Of a stretch of 64,000 bases of DNA, positions 3,602 through 11,423 are shown one piece after another (within the stretch, counting starts at the first letter, position 1; every line of letters starts with the position of its first letter). This stretch comes from Paenibacillus sp. UNC451MF. GTDB taxonomy: Bacteria; Bacillota; Bacilli; Paenibacillales; NBRC-103111. The notes beneath the pieces were generated by a model. That model had not been told where the DNA came from. It did no database searches and saw nothing but the letters and a program-made list of their open reading frames with translations. The position numbers and the translations under genes were made by a program. Location of the stretch: positions 1 to 64,000 of the forward strand of contig NZ_JMLS01000027.1 in NCBI RefSeq assembly GCF_000686845.1. Reading direction: 5' to 3'.

Positions 3602-3973
3602 TTATAATTTTTGATGATCAAATGCTTTTCTAGCCTCAAGAACGGAATCATAATGTGTATCGGTCCATCTATGAAGCGATCGCATGGGTTCAATTAATGT
3701 TTCACCCAATGGGGTTAACGAATATTCAACAGTAGGCGGGACCGTGGGATGGACCTGGCGGTTGACTAAGCCGTCTCGTTCAAGCTGACGTAACGTTTGG
3801 GTAAGCATTTTTTGCGTTACGCCTTCGATTTGCTTTTTCAAGTCGCTGTAACGCTTCTTGCCGCTTTCGAGTTCGTAAAAAACGAGCACGGTCCATTTGC
3901 TGGAGACTACCTCCAATGCACGCCGATAATGGCAAGGTGATTCTTTGTCATCAGATTGAAAGTCGTTATTCAT
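3602..3973 (-). CDS. HxlR-family winged-helix transcriptional regulator
   Basis: The 123-residue protein shows the complete HxlR/MarR-type winged helix. It has an N-terminal cysteine in 'SPCHYRRALEVVSSKWTVLVF', then RYSDLKKQIEGVTQKMLTQTLRQLERDGLV as the recognition helices, and a wing in VEYSLTPLGETL. Such regulators sense electrophiles or redox state and usually repress an oxidoreductase gene next door. Here no oxidoreductase is adjacent. A NAD(P)-binding quinone-reductase-like gene of the usual partner type sits 45 kb away at 48582. The ATG is preceded by AAGGAG. It may regulate itself or genes elsewhere. Confidence 0.88.
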   Translation of the reverse strand: MNNDFQSDDKESPCHYRRALEVVSSKWTVLVFYELESGKKRYSDLKKQIEGVTQKMLTQTLRQLERDGLVNRQVHPTVPPTVEYSLTPLGETLIEPMRSLHRWTDTHYDSVLEARKAFDHQKL

Positions 3974-4006: not shown

Positions 4007-4192
4007 TTGATCTTAGCGTATAACATTCTTCTGAACAAGAACCAAATGCTACTGATGTATGCGAAATGGATGCCAGATGATGGGGGAAGTGGATCGAACA
4101 CGAATGTAGTTGACTATTTATTCGTATGTGAGGTTGTCAATGAGTATAGGATTGGAAAGGGTACCACTCCCGATCAATTGGAAACAATTTGA
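4007..4192 (+). pseudogene. Short open frame of unknown nature, possible gene relic
   Basis: A 61-codon frame starting with TTG lies between the HxlR gene and the next operon. The segment NTNVVDYLFVCEVVNEYRIGKG has the look of a terminal strand pair of a small beta-rich protein such as a SnoaL/NTF2-like fold, but this is only an impression. There is no ribosome binding site, and its end overlaps the -35 box of the promoter for the downstream operon. It may be a remnant or chance. Confidence 0.2.
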
Positions 4193-4217
4193 AAGTCCTG
4201 TCAGCAGCTTTTATAAT
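4189..4217 (+). promoter_or_regulatory. SigA-type promoter of the STM4015-like operon
   Basis: TTGAAA (4189-4194), a 17-base spacer and TATAAT (4212-4217) match the SigA consensus closely. The predicted start of transcription, about 4224, lies about 34 bases before the ATG of the leucine-rich repeat gene. An AGGAGG ribosome binding site is at 4245-4250. Confidence 0.75.
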
Positions 4218-4257: not shown

Positions 4258-5103
4258 ATGTCTGAAATCAAACTATCCGTAGATTACGATCAATATGAGG
4301 ATGGAGTCAAAATCGTTGATTTAATAGAACAACTAGCGAGCAAGGAAGAAAGCTTACAGCTTGAGAGCCTCATTATCGGTGACTGGGGAGGCGCTTATGA
4401 GAATGATTCAAGCGAAGCGGTTGAGGCGTTAGTTAGATTGAAAGACCGTTTTCCGCAGCTGCGAAAACTGTTCATCGGTGATATGTCGTATGAAGAGTGT
4501 GAGGTGTCGTGGATCAATCAATCGAACCTTGCCCCGTTGTTATCCGCGTATCCTGAACTTACATCATTTACAATTAAAGGAAGCACGGGCCTTGTTCTTG
4601 ATCCAGCTAAACATGAAAAGTTGGAAGAGTTGACCATTATTTGTGGTGGTTTAGGCAAAGAGGTCATAGCAAGCATTAGTGAAGGAAGCTTTAGTCGTTT
4701 GAAAAAGCTAGAGCTCTATTTAGGTGTGGATGAATACGGGTTTGATGGAAGCCTGGAGGACGTTCTTTCATTGATCGAACCAGGGAAATTCCCCGAACTC
4801 ACCTATTTAGGACTTAAAGATAGCGAAATTCAAGATGAAATTGCGATCGCCCTCGCGAATGCTCCAATTCTTGATCAATTACATACACTGGATCTCTCGA
4901 TGGGAACGTTGACGGACAAAGGCGCAGAAGCATTGATCCAAAGCGATAAGATCAAGAACCTGAAGTTTCTGGATCTAAACTATCACTACATGTCCGATGA
5001 AATGATGAACCGTTGGAGCAAATCCGGCCTCAATGTAGATACAAGCGATCAGCAGGAAACCGATGATGATGAGGATTATCGCTATCCTTCCTTGACGGAG
5101 TAA
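4258..5103 (+). CDS. STM4015-family leucine-rich repeat protein
   Basis: The 281-residue protein has no signal peptide. Leucine-rich repeats run from about residue 35 to 255, with strands such as LESLIIGDW, LRKLFIGDM, LEELTIICGG, LKKLELYLG, LTYLGLKDSEI, LHTLDLSMGTL and LKFLDLNYHYM. The C-terminus is acidic (DDDEDYRYPSLTE). It matches the STM4015 family, named after an uncharacterised Salmonella protein that occurs with the four genes that follow here. Such repeats bind proteins or peptides, so a role as scaffold, sensor or substrate carrier is reasonable but unproven. It is first in the operon, with the promoter directly upstream and AGGAGG seven bases before the ATG. The next gene starts two bases after its stop. 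Confidence 0.85.
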   Translation: MSEIKLSVDYDQYEDGVKIVDLIEQLASKEESLQLESLIIGDWGGAYENDSSEAVEALVRLKDRFPQLRKLFIGDMSYEECEVSWINQSNLAPLLSAYPELTSFTIKGSTGLVLDPAKHEKLEELTIICGGLGKEVIASISEGSFSRLKKLELYLGVDEYGFDGSLEDVLSLIEPGKFPELTYLGLKDSEIQDEIAIALANAPILDQLHTLDLSMGTLTDKGAEALIQSDKIKNLKFLDLNYHYMSDEMMNRWSKSGLNVDTSDQQETDDDEDYRYPSLTE

Positions 5104-5105
5104 GA

Positions 5106-6326
5106 ATGGATCAGATGATTTTGATCGGCAACTCTGGGAATCGGAGGACAGCCGGTATTCAAGCTGCGCGGGCCAAGCTGGACTTGTCACCGGCCATACA
5201 ACTGAATTACATCGATTTGTTGAAAGGTAAGTCGTCTTTGTTATCGATAGTCGAGTCGCATGGGCTTGCGATGGATGAGCCACCTCTATTAAGGCTAGAT
5301 GCTCCGGGAGAGCATTTCGAAGTTGAGCGTGAGCTAATTGCTTGCGGTGCTCCAGACATAGCAATCAGGGACGAGGATGATCGCTGGCTGCGATATGACA
5401 ATAGACTGTTTCAGCCTATTTCCGTTAGGTTCGCAAGGGATTTGAAGGAAAGCAATGGAAGGCTCTATCATCCATCCCAATGGTTTCGCGGTTATTGTCG
5501 GCTCCTGTCTCGATTGGATAGGGAGGCAAAGCAGCTGTGGAGCAAGCCAGGTTGGATGAACGCTCCTGAGGACATTGCTGCTATGTTCGATAAACGTTAT
5601 ACCTACCAAGTATTGTCGGAGGCTGGCTTGCCAGTCCCAAGGAGATTAGCGTCTCCTGAAGCTGTACCGAATTACGAAGTACTTCGTGAAATGATGGAGA
5701 GCAATCGGACACATCGAATTTTCATAAAGCTGGCGACAGGTTCCGGCGCTTGCGGAGTGATTGCTTATCAAGTGAATCCGGTTACCGGAGCAGAATCCGC
5801 AGTGACCACAATGAGTGTGGAAAACAACTTGTCCAGACCTCCAGTGTTTTATAATCTGAAAAAGCTTCAGCAATACAAAGACCGAGATAGCATACGTCAA
5901 ATCGTCAATTGGCTATTAAGCCATGGCGCGCATATTGAGCAATGGATTCCCAAAGCGGCTTACGGGGATAGGACCTTTGATATCCGGCAGCTGGTTGTTG
6001 CGGGGGAGGCTTGCCACAGCATTGCCAGAGTAAGCAGGACGCCGATTACGAACCTGCATTTGCGTAGTGATCGTATGAGCCTAGATGAGATAGGCCTATC
6101 TTATGACATCCAAGCAGCAGTGAGGTGTTGTGCCGAACAAACGGTGTCAGCATTTCCCGGATCTACCGTAGCGGGTATCGATGTGCTGCTAAGCAGCGGA
6201 GCGTACCGCCCATATGTGCTGGATGTTAATCCGTTTGGAGATCTGTTGTATCGTAATCAATTTGAAGGGCACGATCCGTACGAGTGGGAAATGAAAAGAA
6301 TTGCAGCTCTCCCTCGACTGGCATAA
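5106..6326 (+). CDS. STM4014-family ATP-grasp protein
   Basis: The 406-residue soluble protein carries an ATP-grasp fold in its second half. DKRYTYQVLSEAGLPVPRR opens the domain, HRIFIKLATGSGACGVIAY is the flexible ATP-binding strand-loop with a lysine, and DIRQLVVAGEACHSIARVS and GIDVLLSSGAYRPYVLDVNPFGD supply the acidic and asparagine metal ligands. ATP-grasp enzymes activate a carboxylate as acyl phosphate and ligate it to an amine or similar nucleophile. The N-terminal 150 residues are probably substrate specific. It belongs to the STM4014 family, whose substrate is unknown. Translation appears coupled to the upstream gene: the GGAG that serves as ribosome binding site lies within the last codons of the LRR gene. 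Confidence 0.85.
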   Translation: MDQMILIGNSGNRRTAGIQAARAKLDLSPAIQLNYIDLLKGKSSLLSIVESHGLAMDEPPLLRLDAPGEHFEVERELIACGAPDIAIRDEDDRWLRYDNRLFQPISVRFARDLKESNGRLYHPSQWFRGYCRLLSRLDREAKQLWSKPGWMNAPEDIAAMFDKRYTYQVLSEAGLPVPRRLASPEAVPNYEVLREMMESNRTHRIFIKLATGSGACGVIAYQVNPVTGAESAVTTMSVENNLSRPPVFYNLKKLQQYKDRDSIRQIVNWLLSHGAHIEQWIPKAAYGDRTFDIRQLVVAGEACHSIARVSRTPITNLHLRSDRMSLDEIGLSYDIQAAVRCCAEQTVSAFPGSTVAGIDVLLSSGAYRPYVLDVNPFGDLLYRNQFEGHDPYEWEMKRIAALPRLA

Positions 6327-6342
6327 TAGAAGGGGGATCACC

Positions 6343-7131
6343 ATGATGATCAACATGAATGAAATAGTAGGCAGTCATGATATTTTGATGATTACACTGG
6401 ATACGCTACGGTACGATGCGGCTGTGCTAGAGGAAGAGAATTGTCCGAATCTATGCGGTGGAGGACACTGGGAGCGGCGCCATACTCCAGGCAGCTTTAC
6501 ATATGCAGCGCATCATGCTTTCTTTGGAGGATTTCTGCCTACCCCCGCTACGACGAATAAATCGGAGCATGTTCGTTTGTTTCATTCGAAGAATACAGGC
6601 TTAAAGACGCACCCTTATACGTGGTTATTCGATACGCCGGATATGGTCTCGGGACTTCAGGAAGAAGGATACCGTACTATATGTATCGGTGGGGTTATTT
6701 TCTTTACTAAAAAGGTTCCGCTTGCGAAAATACTTCCAGGATATTTTCAAGAGAGCTATTGGAGAATGACATTCGGTGTTACGAATCCGCGTTCCACGGA
6801 GTATCAGGTGAATCACGCTATCAAGCTTCTTCAAAAATTAGAAGCAACAGAGCGTCTGTTTCTGTTTATGAATGTGTCTGCTATTCATGGACCCAATCAT
6901 TATTTTGTTCCTGGGGCGAGAAAAGACTCTGTAGAGACGCAGCGTGCAGCGCTCAGATATGTCGATGGAGAGCTTGGACGATTGTTCCAAACGTTGAGAG
7001 AAAGGGAGCGGCCCGTCTTTTGTATGGTTTTCTCTGATCACGGTACAGCTTATGGCGAGGATGGTTACGAAGGTCACCGGCTTGCTCATGAGGTGGTCTG
7101 GAATGTGCCGTATCGAGAATTTATTTTATAG
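6343..7131 (+). CDS. STM4013/SEN3800-family alkaline-phosphatase-superfamily hydrolase
   Basis: About 262 residues, no signal peptide. Metal-binding motifs of the alkaline phosphatase/sulfatase superfamily are visible: LMITLDTLRYD (D20) and VFSDHGTAYGEDGYEGHRLAH (D232, H233, H245 or H249). The nucleophile region reads TPGSFTYAAHHAFFGGFLP, so Ser51 or Thr53 sits where a sulfatase would have its modified Cys in C-x-P-x-R. The enzyme is therefore unlikely to be a formylglycine sulfatase. A phosphohydrolase, phosphonate or phosphodiester hydrolase, or transferase fits better. The ATG at 6343 has AGAAGGGGG at a good distance; an upstream TTG at 6301 lies inside the previous gene and has no such site. 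Third gene of the operon. Confidence 0.82.
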   Translation: MMINMNEIVGSHDILMITLDTLRYDAAVLEEENCPNLCGGGHWERRHTPGSFTYAAHHAFFGGFLPTPATTNKSEHVRLFHSKNTGLKTHPYTWLFDTPDMVSGLQEEGYRTICIGGVIFFTKKVPLAKILPGYFQESYWRMTFGVTNPRSTEYQVNHAIKLLQKLEATERLFLFMNVSAIHGPNHYFVPGARKDSVETQRAALRYVDGELGRLFQTLRERERPVFCMVFSDHGTAYGEDGYEGHRLAHEVVWNVPYREFIL

Positions 7132-7146
7132 AAGCGAGAGGAGCAG

Positions 7147-8529
7147 ATGACATTGAGCCATACGGTTGACACTAACTATTCGTACATAATTGAACATCCC
7201 GAGGCTCTTCGCAGATGGAAGGAAACCATTGCTTCTGAGCCCTACAAGTCGTATCTATACTCTTATCCGCATAAAACCTCCTACAGAGAATTTGAGACAA
7301 AATTGCCATTATCCGAGCTGTGGAGTAAAGAACCCGCGGAATCATTCTTCTTATATATGCATATCCCGTTCTGCGGAGCACGATGCGGTTTTTGTAATCT
7401 ATTTACGCTGCCTGACAAAAGTGCGGATGTCCACGCACAGTATGTGGATGCATTGGAGCGGCAAGCTGAGCAATGGGCTCCTTTTATCCAGAATAAACCT
7501 ATCGCAAGGTTCGCCATAGGAGGGGGTACACCCACATTACTGGAGCCGTTTCAGCTTGATCGGTTGTTTCGTATTGCGAAAGAAAAGGTTGGAATGGACC
7601 CATCGCGAACTTCCATTTCAGTAGAAACTTCTCCCGAAACGGTGACAATCGATCGTCTAGACATATTAAAGTCACACCAGGTGGATCGTGTCAGCATGGG
7701 GATTCAAAGCTTTATCGAGGCGGAGGCGGAAGCAATTTACCGGCCCCAAAAGCCTTTGGAGGTAGAAAGAGCTCTTGAGCAGCTTAAGCAGTATCAGTTT
7801 CCGATACTTAATTTGGATTTGATCTATGGACTCCCTGGTCAAACGGTTGATTCTTGGCTTTACTCACTGGATCGCGCTTTATCCTTTGAACCGGGTGAAA
7901 TCTTCATTTATCCGTTATATACCCGAGAGCACACGATTGTGAAGCCTGAACAGATTCGGCAAAGTGGTGAAGACCGGCGTATCCTTTTATATACTGCAGC
8001 ACGTGATCGATTGCTTGCTCAAGGATACACCCAGTACTCCATGCGCAGATTTGCAAGGGAGGAAGCCAGTTCAAACAAACCACTTTTTCCGTATGGCTGC
8101 CAGGAGGAAGGAATGATTGGTTTAGGCTGCGGCGCACGTTCATACACGAGGAACGTTCATTACTCATCGAGATATAGCGTTGGCCGTTCAGCAACCGCAA
8201 GCATCATTGCCGATTATGTGGCTGCCGAGAATTATTCGACTGCAGATTACGGAATAATCCTGAGTGATGACGAGAAAAAACGACGGTTTATTCTGAAAGC
8301 CCTGCTGCATACTGAAGGGCTTGCCCTTAGCAGTTATGTGGAGCGTTTCGGAACACAGACGCTGGACGATTATCCTGAGCTACAGCTGTTGGTTCTTACC
8401 GGACTTGCTTGTATAGAGCCAGATCTCCTGTGCTTAACCCATGAAGGTCTTATGTACTCCGATGCTATCGGAGATTGGTTAATCTCAGCTGATATACGGT
8501 CTCGTATGGAAAGCTACGTGCTGTTATGA
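7147..8529 (+). CDS. STM4012-family radical SAM protein (HemN/HemW-like)
   Basis: The 460-residue protein has the radical SAM cluster motif in FCGARCGFCNLF (Cys76, Cys80, Cys83). The glycine-rich SAM site AIGGGTPTLLEPFQL follows, then RVSMGIQSFIEAE and LNLDLIYGLPGQT, all as in the coproporphyrinogen-dehydrogenase-like HemN/HemW group. A HemN-type C-terminal winged domain begins at about residue 370 (KRRFILKALLHTEGLALSSYVERFG). Within that group it matches the STM4012 family, which travels with STM4011-STM4015 rather than with haem genes; no haem gene is near. The reaction is unknown. The ribosome binding site is GAGAGGAG. Its stop overlaps the next start as ATGA. Confidence 0.87.
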   Translation: MTLSHTVDTNYSYIIEHPEALRRWKETIASEPYKSYLYSYPHKTSYREFETKLPLSELWSKEPAESFFLYMHIPFCGARCGFCNLFTLPDKSADVHAQYVDALERQAEQWAPFIQNKPIARFAIGGGTPTLLEPFQLDRLFRIAKEKVGMDPSRTSISVETSPETVTIDRLDILKSHQVDRVSMGIQSFIEAEAEAIYRPQKPLEVERALEQLKQYQFPILNLDLIYGLPGQTVDSWLYSLDRALSFEPGEIFIYPLYTREHTIVKPEQIRQSGEDRRILLYTAARDRLLAQGYTQYSMRRFAREEASSNKPLFPYGCQEEGMIGLGCGARSYTRNVHYSSRYSVGRSATASIIADYVAAENYSTADYGIILSDDEKKRRFILKALLHTEGLALSSYVERFGTQTLDDYPELQLLVLTGLACIEPDLLCLTHEGLMYSDAIGDWLISADIRSRMESYVLL

Positions 8530-9383
8530 GGGCGACCATTTATTTCAGAGGCAGCTTATCCTCCTGTAATTATGATTGTCCGTATTGCCCTTTTAGCAAG
8601 AACACGGATAGTCCTGAGACATTGGCCAGAGACCGGCAGCAGATAGAGAAGTTTGTGCAATGGATCCGTAGTCAGGAAGCCAAAGAACATCGTATATCCG
8701 TATTTTTTAATCCGTATGGCGAAGGCCTCACCCACAGGTGGTATTGCGATGCAATGATTGAGTTGTCCCATATGAAGCATGTGGACAAAGTAGCTATTCA
8801 AACAAACCTCTCCGCTAAACTGGATTGGACCTCGGAATTGCATGCAGCTAAGACTGCATTCTGGGCGACTTATCATCCTGGACAGACGGACGAATCCAGA
8901 TATGTAACTCAGTGTGAGAGGCTGTATTCGCAGAAAATACCATTCAGTGTAGGCTCGGTAGGAGTGAAAAGTGCATTCGATTCCATTTACTCATTAAGAC
9001 AGGCGCTTCCAGAAGACGTTTATATGTGGGTTAACGCTTATAAGGATAAACTGGAATACTATTCGGAAGCAGATATTCTTTTTTTGACCCAGATAGATCC
9101 GCATTTTACTATTAATGCAGTAGATTACGATAGTATGGGCAAGCCTTGCTCAGCTGGGCAAGGCGTGTTCTATGTTCAAGGCGACGGCCGTGTTAAGCGA
9201 TGCTATAAGGATCGTCAAGTTATAGGCAATCTGTACAGGGATGGGCTGGAAGGGATTGCTGAAATACGGCCATGCCGGATGAAGCAGTGTGACTGCTATA
9301 TCGGCTATATTCATATGCCGGAACTGCAGCTTGACCGAATTTATGGGGAAAGGCTGTTGGAAAGGATAGCTAGAACAAAGTAA
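8526..9383 (+). CDS. STM4011-family radical SAM protein with C-terminal cysteine cluster
   Basis: The 285-residue protein begins with the radical SAM motif SSCNYDCPYCPF (Cys14, Cys18, Cys21), very close to the N-terminus. The NPYGEGL segment probably lies in the SAM site. The C-terminal 80 residues contain five more cysteines (208, 226, 250, 255, 257) in a spacing like SPASM/twitch domains, which bind auxiliary iron-sulfur clusters in peptide- and sugar-modifying radical enzymes. It matches the STM4011 family of unknown reaction. It overlaps the preceding radical SAM gene by four bases, so the two are probably made in equal amounts and may act on the same substrate. Confidence 0.87.
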   Translation: MRATIYFRGSLSSCNYDCPYCPFSKNTDSPETLARDRQQIEKFVQWIRSQEAKEHRISVFFNPYGEGLTHRWYCDAMIELSHMKHVDKVAIQTNLSAKLDWTSELHAAKTAFWATYHPGQTDESRYVTQCERLYSQKIPFSVGSVGVKSAFDSIYSLRQALPEDVYMWVNAYKDKLEYYSEADILFLTQIDPHFTINAVDYDSMGKPCSAGQGVFYVQGDGRVKRCYKDRQVIGNLYRDGLEGIAEIRPCRMKQCDCYIGYIHMPELQLDRIYGERLLERIARTK

Positions 9384-9400
9384 AGAGAAAGAAGCGTACT

Positions 9401-9916
9401 ATGGAGCATAGAGGTCAAACTATATGGTTAACAGGGCTTCCTAGCTCTGGAAAAACAACTACAGCTATTGCTTTGGCGAATGCTCTCAAAGAAAAAGGAG
9501 TATTGGTTGAATGCTTGGATGGAGACGAGCTTCGTCGCGAAGTCGGTCGTGAGCTTGGATTCAGCAGGGAAGACCGAATGGAAAATATTCGTCGAGCCGT
9601 TTACATTAGTAAGCTTTTGAATCGTAATGGGGTCATAACCATCGTTTCTATGATCTCTCCCTATCTTGAGATGAGGGAGTATGCTCGATCGGAACTTGAA
9701 CAGTTCATCGAGGTGTATGTGAATTGTCCGTTAGAAGAGTGCATCCGCCGGGATGTGAAGGGACTGTATGCCAAAGCCAGCAAAGGCGAGATCGCTTTAT
9801 TTACAGGCATTTCGGACGTATACGAGCCTCCGACAAAACCTGAGATCACTATTCAAACGCATAAGAGCAATATTAATGATAATGTGAATATGATCATGAA
9901 TTACCTGGCTAGATGA
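9401..9916 (+). CDS. cysC: Adenylylsulfate-kinase-like protein (CysC family)
   Basis: The 171-residue protein carries the P-loop GLPSSGKT (12-19), then CLDGDELRREVGRELGFSREDRMENIRR, the signature of APS kinases that phosphorylate the 3'-OH of adenylylsulfate to give PAPS. ISPYLEMREYAR and the 'YVNCPLEECIRRDVKGLYAKA' lid follow. It lies 17 bases after the radical SAM gene on the same strand, so it is probably the sixth gene of the operon. No sulfate adenylyltransferase or sulfotransferase is in the window. Some relatives annotated as APS kinase, such as the Campylobacter capsule enzyme Cj1415, phosphorylate other nucleotides, so the substrate is not certain. Confidence 0.8.
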   Translation: MEHRGQTIWLTGLPSSGKTTTAIALANALKEKGVLVECLDGDELRREVGRELGFSREDRMENIRRAVYISKLLNRNGVITIVSMISPYLEMREYARSELEQFIEVYVNCPLEECIRRDVKGLYAKASKGEIALFTGISDVYEPPTKPEITIQTHKSNINDNVNMIMNYLAR

Positions 9917-10745: not shown

Positions 10746-10832
10746 TGGATGGTTGTGGTATACATGAGGGCTGCTGAGAATTCAGTGGCCACTTTTAACA
10801 ATAATGAATCCGATGAAAACAAAGGAGAGCTG

Positions 10833-11423
10833 ATGATGAATAAGCCTCAACTCGTTTTAGATGCAGCCGGCGTCATCGTTACGAACTTTTCACCTTTATT
10901 TTGGAAAGAGATTATTGGAGATTCTGCTATATCTTTTGAAGAATTAAAAGCTTTATTTAAAAAAGAAATGCGATTGCGGCTCTGGACAGGAGAAGCTAGT
11001 TTGGACGAATTCTGGAGTTGGCTCTCTGAACGGACTCCTCAAATGGATAAATTACATACGAAGAGACTGATCGATAAACATTTGGTTTCCTTACCTGCAT
11101 TTGACCTTATTATCCAATGGAGCGTACAAGCTGATATCCACATTCTCAGTAACCATCGTACGGAATGGCTAGCTCCAGTATTAAACCCAATCGCCAATAA
11201 CCTTAAAAGCATTACAATATCCAGTGAAGCAGGCTGCTGTAAACCGGACCCGACCATATATCGTCTCGTACAAAGCAAGATTGAAGACCCTAATGCATCC
11301 GTTATCTATGTCGACGATCAGGAGAAAAATATGGTAGAAGCTGAGAAGCTCGGATGGCATACAATTATTGCAGATCCAGGTGGTGAGTGGGTGTCAGAAA
11401 TAGAGAAGCAGTTGAGTTTGTAA
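10833..11423 (+). CDS. HAD-superfamily hydrolase-like protein with altered motif I
   Basis: About 196 residues. HAD motifs appear in order: motif I LVLDAAGVIV (nucleophile Asp10), motif II HILSNHRTEW, motif III lysine in CCKPDPTIY and motif IV VIYVDDQEKN, with a helical cap between I and II. HAD phosphatases use D-x-D in motif I. Here the second acidic residue is alanine (DAAG), so the usual acid/base is missing and ordinary phosphatase activity is doubtful. The open frame extends to 10749, but AAAGGAG at 10821-10827 supports a start at 10833 or 10836. It follows the interrupted gene by less than 100 bases. Confidence 0.75.
   Translation: MMNKPQLVLDAAGVIVTNFSPLFWKEIIGDSAISFEELKALFKKEMRLRLWTGEASLDEFWSWLSERTPQMDKLHTKRLIDKHLVSLPAFDLIIQWSVQADIHILSNHRTEWLAPVLNPIANNLKSITISSEAGCCKPDPTIYRLVQSKIEDPNASVIYVDDQEKNMVEAEKLGWHTIIADPGGEWVSEIEKQLSL

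Follow-up and report, generated by a model that had tools for sequence, protein, structure and literature searches.

What does a group of six closely spaced genes do when five of them belong to families named after Salmonella locus tags? The window analysed here is a stretch of 64,000 nucleotides from Paenibacillus sp. UNC451MF (positions 1 to 64,000 of contig NZ_JMLS01000027.1), in which six intact, co-directional open reading frames (ORFs) lie within positions 4258-9916. They encode the leucine-rich repeat protein STM4015, the ATP-grasp ligase STM4014, the alkaline-phosphatase-superfamily protein STM4013, the radical S-adenosylmethionine (SAM) proteins STM4012 and STM4011, and a P-loop kinase resembling adenosine 5'-phosphosulfate (APS) kinases. 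The five families carry locus-tag names because no function is known for them; the initial annotation knew of none for the five, the literature gave none for STM4011-STM4015, nor for SEN3800, DUF6745 or 2RA8/Q64V53, and papers naming STM40xx genes list them as entries in tables only. The initial annotation had given the leucine-rich repeat protein a role in peptide recognition. Our results suggest a different one: STM4015, every examined copy of which ends in Glu, a feature newly described here, is instead the best candidate for the carrier or substrate of the pathway.

The C-terminus of STM4015

The comparison covered 101 distinct loci, an order-level sample of 248 Paenibacillales genomes and a phylum-level sample of 398 genomes. 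In STM4015 a leucine-rich repeat domain is followed by a linker, mostly acidic and variable in sequence, and by a short C-terminal motif. Without exception the protein ends in Glu, which holds for the 116 tabulated sequences and for an additional WGR-like copy (117/117). Eighteen of the 116 come from outside Paenibacillaceae, among them sequences of Salmonella, Bacteroides, Deinococcus, actinomycetes, Methylobacterium and Calothrix. Because most of the sequences belong to one family, they do not represent 116 independent events, and the weight of the observation rests on about ten deeply separated lineages. The entropy of the last position is 0.00 bits in STM4015, against 3.67 in STM4014 and 3.35 in STM4011, and the C-termini of the latter two are close to random (3.2-3.9 bits per position). 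Terminal Glu is also retained in duplicate copies of STM4015 and in copies encoded on the same record but away from the cluster, including those of Streptomyces and Embleya, whose records also contain STM4014.

The tail occurs in forms such as DDWRYPSLTE, DDWRFVALGE and DEWRYVALGE, in which Arg at position -7 and the aromatic residue at -6 are highly conserved and positions -2 to -5 differ between phyla. In the AlphaFold2 (AF2) model of STM4015 (predicted local distance difference test, pLDDT, 92.7) the repeat domain is confident and the values fall to 61-79 across the last ~20 residues. Since the linker is variable and predicted to be flexible, the fold does not explain the conservation of the end. 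The closest fold match is PDB 2ra8 (full length, template modelling score TMq 0.89), a solved relative from Bacteroides fragilis, the matched part of which ends in ...YPMITE; the Bacteroides STM4015 has a WGR domain. STM4015 is strongly acidic, with a median net charge of -30, and STM4014 is near neutral (+1). The absence of a precursor peptide from the operon, reported earlier, is correct in so far as no separate short peptide recurs when ORFs of at least 40 amino acids are clustered around the 101 loci, but the repeat protein itself is the best candidate substrate.

The ligase STM4014

Blind search of the PDB with the AF2 model of STM4014 (pLDDT 92.4) places LysX/ArgX enzymes in all seven best fold positions, and the titles of two of the three entries concerned name LysW or a LysW adduct. 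The idea of a LysW-like system had been derived from the tail of STM4015 before this search was made. LysX and ArgX covalently load the C-terminal Glu of the carrier LysW, whose EDWGE motif is recognised by the GSWGR motif of the ligase (PMC10433800). The bond in LysW-type carriers is an isopeptide bond via the Glu gamma-carboxylate, and the enzymes acting on such carriers recognise these acidic proteins partly by charge contacts (PMC9303977). Ranked below the LysX/ArgX matches are PsnB and MdnC, which are graspetide ligases, and then inositol-phosphate kinases and RimK. Weak profile matches of STM4014 were to the RimK family, MptN, CofF and LysX.

The radical SAM proteins, STM4013 and the kinase

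STM4012 keeps the CX3CX2C cluster motif and the HemN_C domain, and its nearest solved relatives are HemN (1olt) and the radical SAM methyltransferase NocN (9p2u). It stays below the curated cut-offs of both HemN (136 vs 325 bits) and HemW (152 vs 205 bits). The conserved cysteines of STM4011 are C14/C18/C21 (CX3CX2C) and C208/C226/C250/C255/C257 near the C-terminus; with 12 bits against a cut-off of 349, it is not an anaerobic sulfatase maturase by this model. Neither radical SAM protein is therefore placed in the HemN, HemW or maturase families, and the earlier view of the operon as a modification pathway, distinct from haem or sulfate metabolism, survives. The resemblance of STM4011 to viperin (18.6 vs 180 bits) lies far below the cut-off.

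STM4013 retains the conserved set of the alkaline phosphatase superfamily, D20/H182/D232/H233/H245 together with Thr53 at the nucleophile position, as assigned by alignment with a protein of the sulfatase family that this genome also encodes. Thr53 is invariant and lies in a TYAAHHA motif. Because an invariant Thr occupies the nucleophile position and not the Cys/Ser of the CxPxR-type motif, STM4013 is not a formylglycine sulfatase, and therefore no maturase is needed. A distant (27%) STM4013-like sulfatase-family gene is present on Ti plasmids outside any such cluster (L191:6001-6837). On a Streptomyces albidoflavus plasmid (L192:4881-8330), STM4013 is accompanied by genes for a MoaA-like radical SAM protein, a dTMP-kinase-like protein, a protein of unknown type and a Nudix protein, which stand in place of the other four core genes; this set is possibly a separate pathway sharing the STM4013-type hydrolase.

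The sixth gene is APS-kinase-like by its profile match. It had been described as an extension of the operon, and it is indeed part of it here, but it is not special to this genome: a kinase gene lies directly downstream of the core in about one third of the 101 loci (Paenibacillaceae) and is thus a common optional part. The operon kinases branch separately (support 100/99) from the APS kinases that are common in the order and differ from these at five diagnostic residues; their clade includes one copy located ~7 kb upstream of its operon. The second APS-kinase-like gene of the present genome (L185:5147-7194, G000:C9) also groups with the operon kinases. It shares a few bases with a gene of the sulfatase family and adjoins sugar ABC-transporter genes.

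A proposed pathway and its alternatives

We propose a protein-tethered biosynthetic or modification pathway, to which about an even chance of being correct is given. The flexible acidic arm of STM4015 would present its last residue, Glu, as the attachment point; STM4014, which has a LysX/ArgX/RimK-type fold, would use ATP to activate this Glu and couple an amine to it; an amino acid or another amino metabolite is the probable partner. The tethered group could then be altered by the HemN-like STM4012 and the SPASM-like STM4011, and phosphoryl chemistry might be carried out on it by STM4013 together with the APS-kinase-like enzyme in this operon and with a Cof-type haloacid dehalogenase (HAD) phosphatase in Salmonella and Bacteroides. 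The kinase in Paenibacillaceae and the phosphatase in Salmonella and Bacteroides together suggest phosphorylated intermediates.

Several points weigh against this proposal. STM4014 and LysX/ArgX resemble each other in fold only distantly, with 12-15% identity and a TM of about 0.5 relative to the query, and at such a distance all ATP-grasp ligases look alike. The motifs of the LysW systems are absent: STM4015 ends in RYPxxTE or RYVAxxE-type sequences and not in EDWGE; it has a leucine-rich repeat fold with no Cys among its positions conserved at >=93%, and hence no zinc cysteines; and in place of GSWGR the segment of STM4014, matched by eye, reads K208-LATGSGACGV, in which G212, S213, A215 and G217 are invariant across the family. 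Since all three features are missing, STM4015 and STM4014 are not members of the LysW family. In addition, the operon contains no dedicated release hydrolase or peptidase, and a Calothrix plasmid (W01) keeps the STM4015 tail while no STM4014 was found on the plasmid, which alone, without the chromosome, was searched. The invariant end could serve as a docking signal. Finally, what the data show is the gene set with its order and co-occurrence, the invariant C-terminal Glu on a flexible tail, the fold class of the ligase and the retained catalytic residues; that Glu is loaded covalently, which amine it receives, how the radical and phosphoryl enzymes act and what product is released or retained are elements that we infer.

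Two other roles of STM4015 deserve attention. It is rather unlikely, in our estimate, that STM4015 is itself the end product, its C-terminus being extended or cross-linked by STM4014, as ribosomal protein S6 is by RimK or a precursor is by graspetide ligases, and its W/Y-R-Y tail being altered by the radical SAM enzymes, so that a protein with a lasting modification, or a peptide excised from this protein, results. The high conservation of Arg at -7 and the aromatic residue at -6 would suit such a role, as would the SPASM-like cysteines of STM4011, typical of peptide-modifying enzymes, the lack of a release enzyme, and the rank of RimK, PsnB and MdnC just under LysX. However, LysX comes first, ahead of the graspetide ligases, and the variation at positions -2 to -5 between phyla leaves no fixed cross-linkable side chain besides the terminal Glu. 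It is unlikely that STM4015 is an adaptor, binding the enzymes or a substrate not linked to it, with its terminal Glu acting as a docking or recognition signal only. Leucine-rich repeats usually serve as binding surfaces, the Bacteroides protein carries its WGR domain, and the Deinococcus and actinomycete copies adjoin a DUF6745 gene paired with one for a ~100 aa protein, all of which speaks for an adaptor; on the other hand, nothing obliges a docking motif to lie at the extreme end of the protein in all lineages, and the fold of the partner ligase is that of enzymes activating a C-terminal Glu.

The assignment of the genes to haem, sulfatase-maturation or sulfate metabolism has been largely refuted and is considered very improbable. 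It could draw on the kinship of STM4012 with HemN, on the APS-kinase model passed by the sixth protein and on the sulfoquinovose genes beside the Salmonella cluster, but both radical SAM proteins score far below the relevant cut-offs, STM4013 has its invariant Thr in place of the sulfatase Cys/Ser, and about two thirds of the operons lack the kinase.

Returning to the tethered pathway, a broader claim is put forward only tentatively, as it seems to us somewhat less likely to hold than to fail: STM4015 and STM4014 may represent a class of ribosomal carrier system not described before, built on a leucine-rich repeat protein whose C-terminal Glu would hold intermediates through an amino link while radical SAM and phosphoryl enzymes act on them, in several phyla including Salmonella, to make an unknown natural product or cofactor. 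If this were true, 44% of the sampled Paenibacillales, together with Salmonella, Bacteroides, Deinococcus and actinomycetes, would possess a pathway that relies on a carrier and employs a pair of radical SAM enzymes, and an undiscovered metabolite or protein modification would be indicated. The invariant Glu and the LysX-like ligase reduce the functional question to a mass shift on one peptide.

Gene order, boundaries and distribution

The six-gene stretch is a true unit with a conserved five-gene core. The head-to-tail arrangement described earlier is borne out, with spacings of 2, 16, 15, -4 (an ATGA overlap) and 17 bases. All five core proteins exceed the curated NCBIfam cut-offs of the STM4015-STM4011 families, confirming the first assignment, the sixth exceeds that of the apsK equivalog domain, and the Pfam assignments of the six are consistent with these (table 1). 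The sigma-A-type promoter noted before was also found; the site, identified by consensus match only, scored best among 7 candidates in the region.

Table 1. Features of the operon and its surroundings in the window, with profile scores
Feature	Position	Strand	Score or remark
Promoter-like site TTGAAA-17-TATAAT	4189..4217	+	11/12 consensus match, sigma-A-type
STM4015 leucine-rich repeat protein, proposed carrier/substrate, 281 aa	4258..5103	+	NF038076, 363 bits (cut-off 275)
Predicted flexible acidic linker of STM4015, residues 259-273, NVDTSDQQETDDDED	5032..5076	+	variable sequence; low AF2 confidence
C-terminal motif YRYPSLTE of STM4015	5077..5100	+	last codon encodes the invariant Glu, proposed attachment site
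STM4014 ATP-grasp ligase, 406 aa	5106..6326	+	NF038074, 426 bits (cut-off 175)
STM4013 alkaline-phosphatase-superfamily hydrolase/transferase, 262 aa	6343..7131	+	NF038075, 400 bits (cut-off 250)
STM4012 HemN-like radical SAM enzyme, 460 aa	7147..8529	+	NF006067, 591 bits (cut-off 380)
STM4011 radical SAM enzyme, SPASM-like C-terminal cysteines, 285 aa	8526..9383	+	NF038073, 400 bits (cut-off 200)
APS-kinase-like P-loop kinase, optional sixth gene, 171 aa	9401..9916	+	TIGR00455, 216 bits (cut-off 138.7)

The order 4015-4014-4013-4012-4011, on one strand, is kept in nearly all of the 101 loci; the exceptions seen were one locus truncated where its contig stops and one genome in which the operon has been rearranged. 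In that genome (G551) the operon is found in two places ~1.4 Mb apart (L173/L254 and L174/L255), with STM4013 broken near residue 170, which is a rearrangement inside the operon. In the neighbourhood analysis that had been suggested, the five genes co-occur and are adjacent in other genomes and phyla, no short conserved peptide accompanies them in the operon, and the kinase is present in about a third of the loci. Neither of the two outcomes named in advance as refuting the initial annotation was obtained. The neighbours of the operon in the window have counterparts at a comparable position in no more than 2 of the loci compared, and the boundaries of the operon are therefore real; the exception is one large transporter-type family ~5 kb past its end, which recurs. 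A HAD ORF at 10749-11423 was rejected as a member of the operon, a similar neighbour being present in just one other locus. A divergent HxlR-type regulator is encoded upstream (3602-3973, minus strand) and has a homologue near the operon in one other locus only.

The five-gene core is present in the 44% of sampled Paenibacillales mentioned above. STM4015 occurs in 111 of the 248 genomes and STM4013 in the same number, 110 of them with STM4013 above its cut-off, and among the genomes listed the two sets match; at the level of the phylum, STM4015 and above-cut-off STM4012 share the same 8 of 398 genomes. Named plasmid records with all five genes come from Paenibacillus, Streptomyces, Methylobacterium, Deinococcus and Salmonella, and similarity searches also found the five in Embleya and Nonomuraea. 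The Salmonella namesakes agree with the present operon in all five genes and their order. On a Bacteroides finegoldii plasmid (L210:9838-12778) STM4015, STM4014 and STM4011 are kept, and the greater part of STM4013 and STM4012 has been deleted. There, STM4011 forms a fusion protein with a Cof-type HAD phosphatase, and the Salmonella cluster, which adjoins the sulfoquinovose genes, has a Cof-type HAD gene at the position matching this fusion partner. Salmonella and Bacteroides therefore add a phosphatase where Paenibacillaceae add the APS-kinase-like gene.

The pair formed by a DUF6745 gene and a ~100 aa protein is linked to the cluster in Deinococcus, Streptomyces, Nonomuraea and Methylobacterium (L187-L189, L195-L198). 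The small protein (MYRQGDVLI...GEVTGHxH...QREYxP) ends in Asp in all 6 aligned sequences, and in D. ficus a DUF6745 gene and a small gene adjoin each other without the cluster. A search of the present genome, made without a positive control, did not detect DUF6745. No relative was found on viral contigs; three records labelled 'phage' that contain STM4013 resemble Salmonella-type sequence. A role in anti-phage defence was rejected, the PADLOC matches being only weak, non-specific ones to radical SAM and P-loop proteins.

Comparison with known systems

Several systems share parts of this arrangement. RimK, which glutamylates the C-terminus of ribosomal protein S6, has the same ATP-grasp fold, and modification would likewise be expected at the C-terminal Glu of a folded protein; however, S6 is not involved here and the ligase has four other enzymes beside it. 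Graspetide ligases (PsnB, MdnC) have a similar fold and a ribosomal substrate, whereas in the present case there is no short precursor with a repeated core and the last residue of STM4015 alone is invariant. In the pearlin pathways (for example those to 3-thiaGlu and 3-thiahomoleucine) an amino acid is built on the C-terminus of a ribosomal scaffold, in some cases with a radical SAM enzyme (PMC9303977). There, the ligation depends on an aminoacyl-tRNA-dependent PEARL ligase, which here would be replaced by the ATP-grasp enzyme; profile comparison gave no match to a PEARL (LanB-type) ligase among the six operon proteins.

The closest parallel is offered by the LysW systems, in which, as here, a C-terminal Glu on an acidic protein tail is combined with an ATP-grasp ligase of the LysX fold, and later enzymes act on the tethered group, as is proposed for STM4015. 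The differences lie in the carrier, a 281-aa leucine-rich repeat protein and not a small zinc protein, and in the downstream enzymes, which are radical SAM and phosphoryl enzymes. It is proposed, by analogy, that the STM4015-STM4014 pair resembles the LysW systems, to whose family it does not belong, in its way of working.

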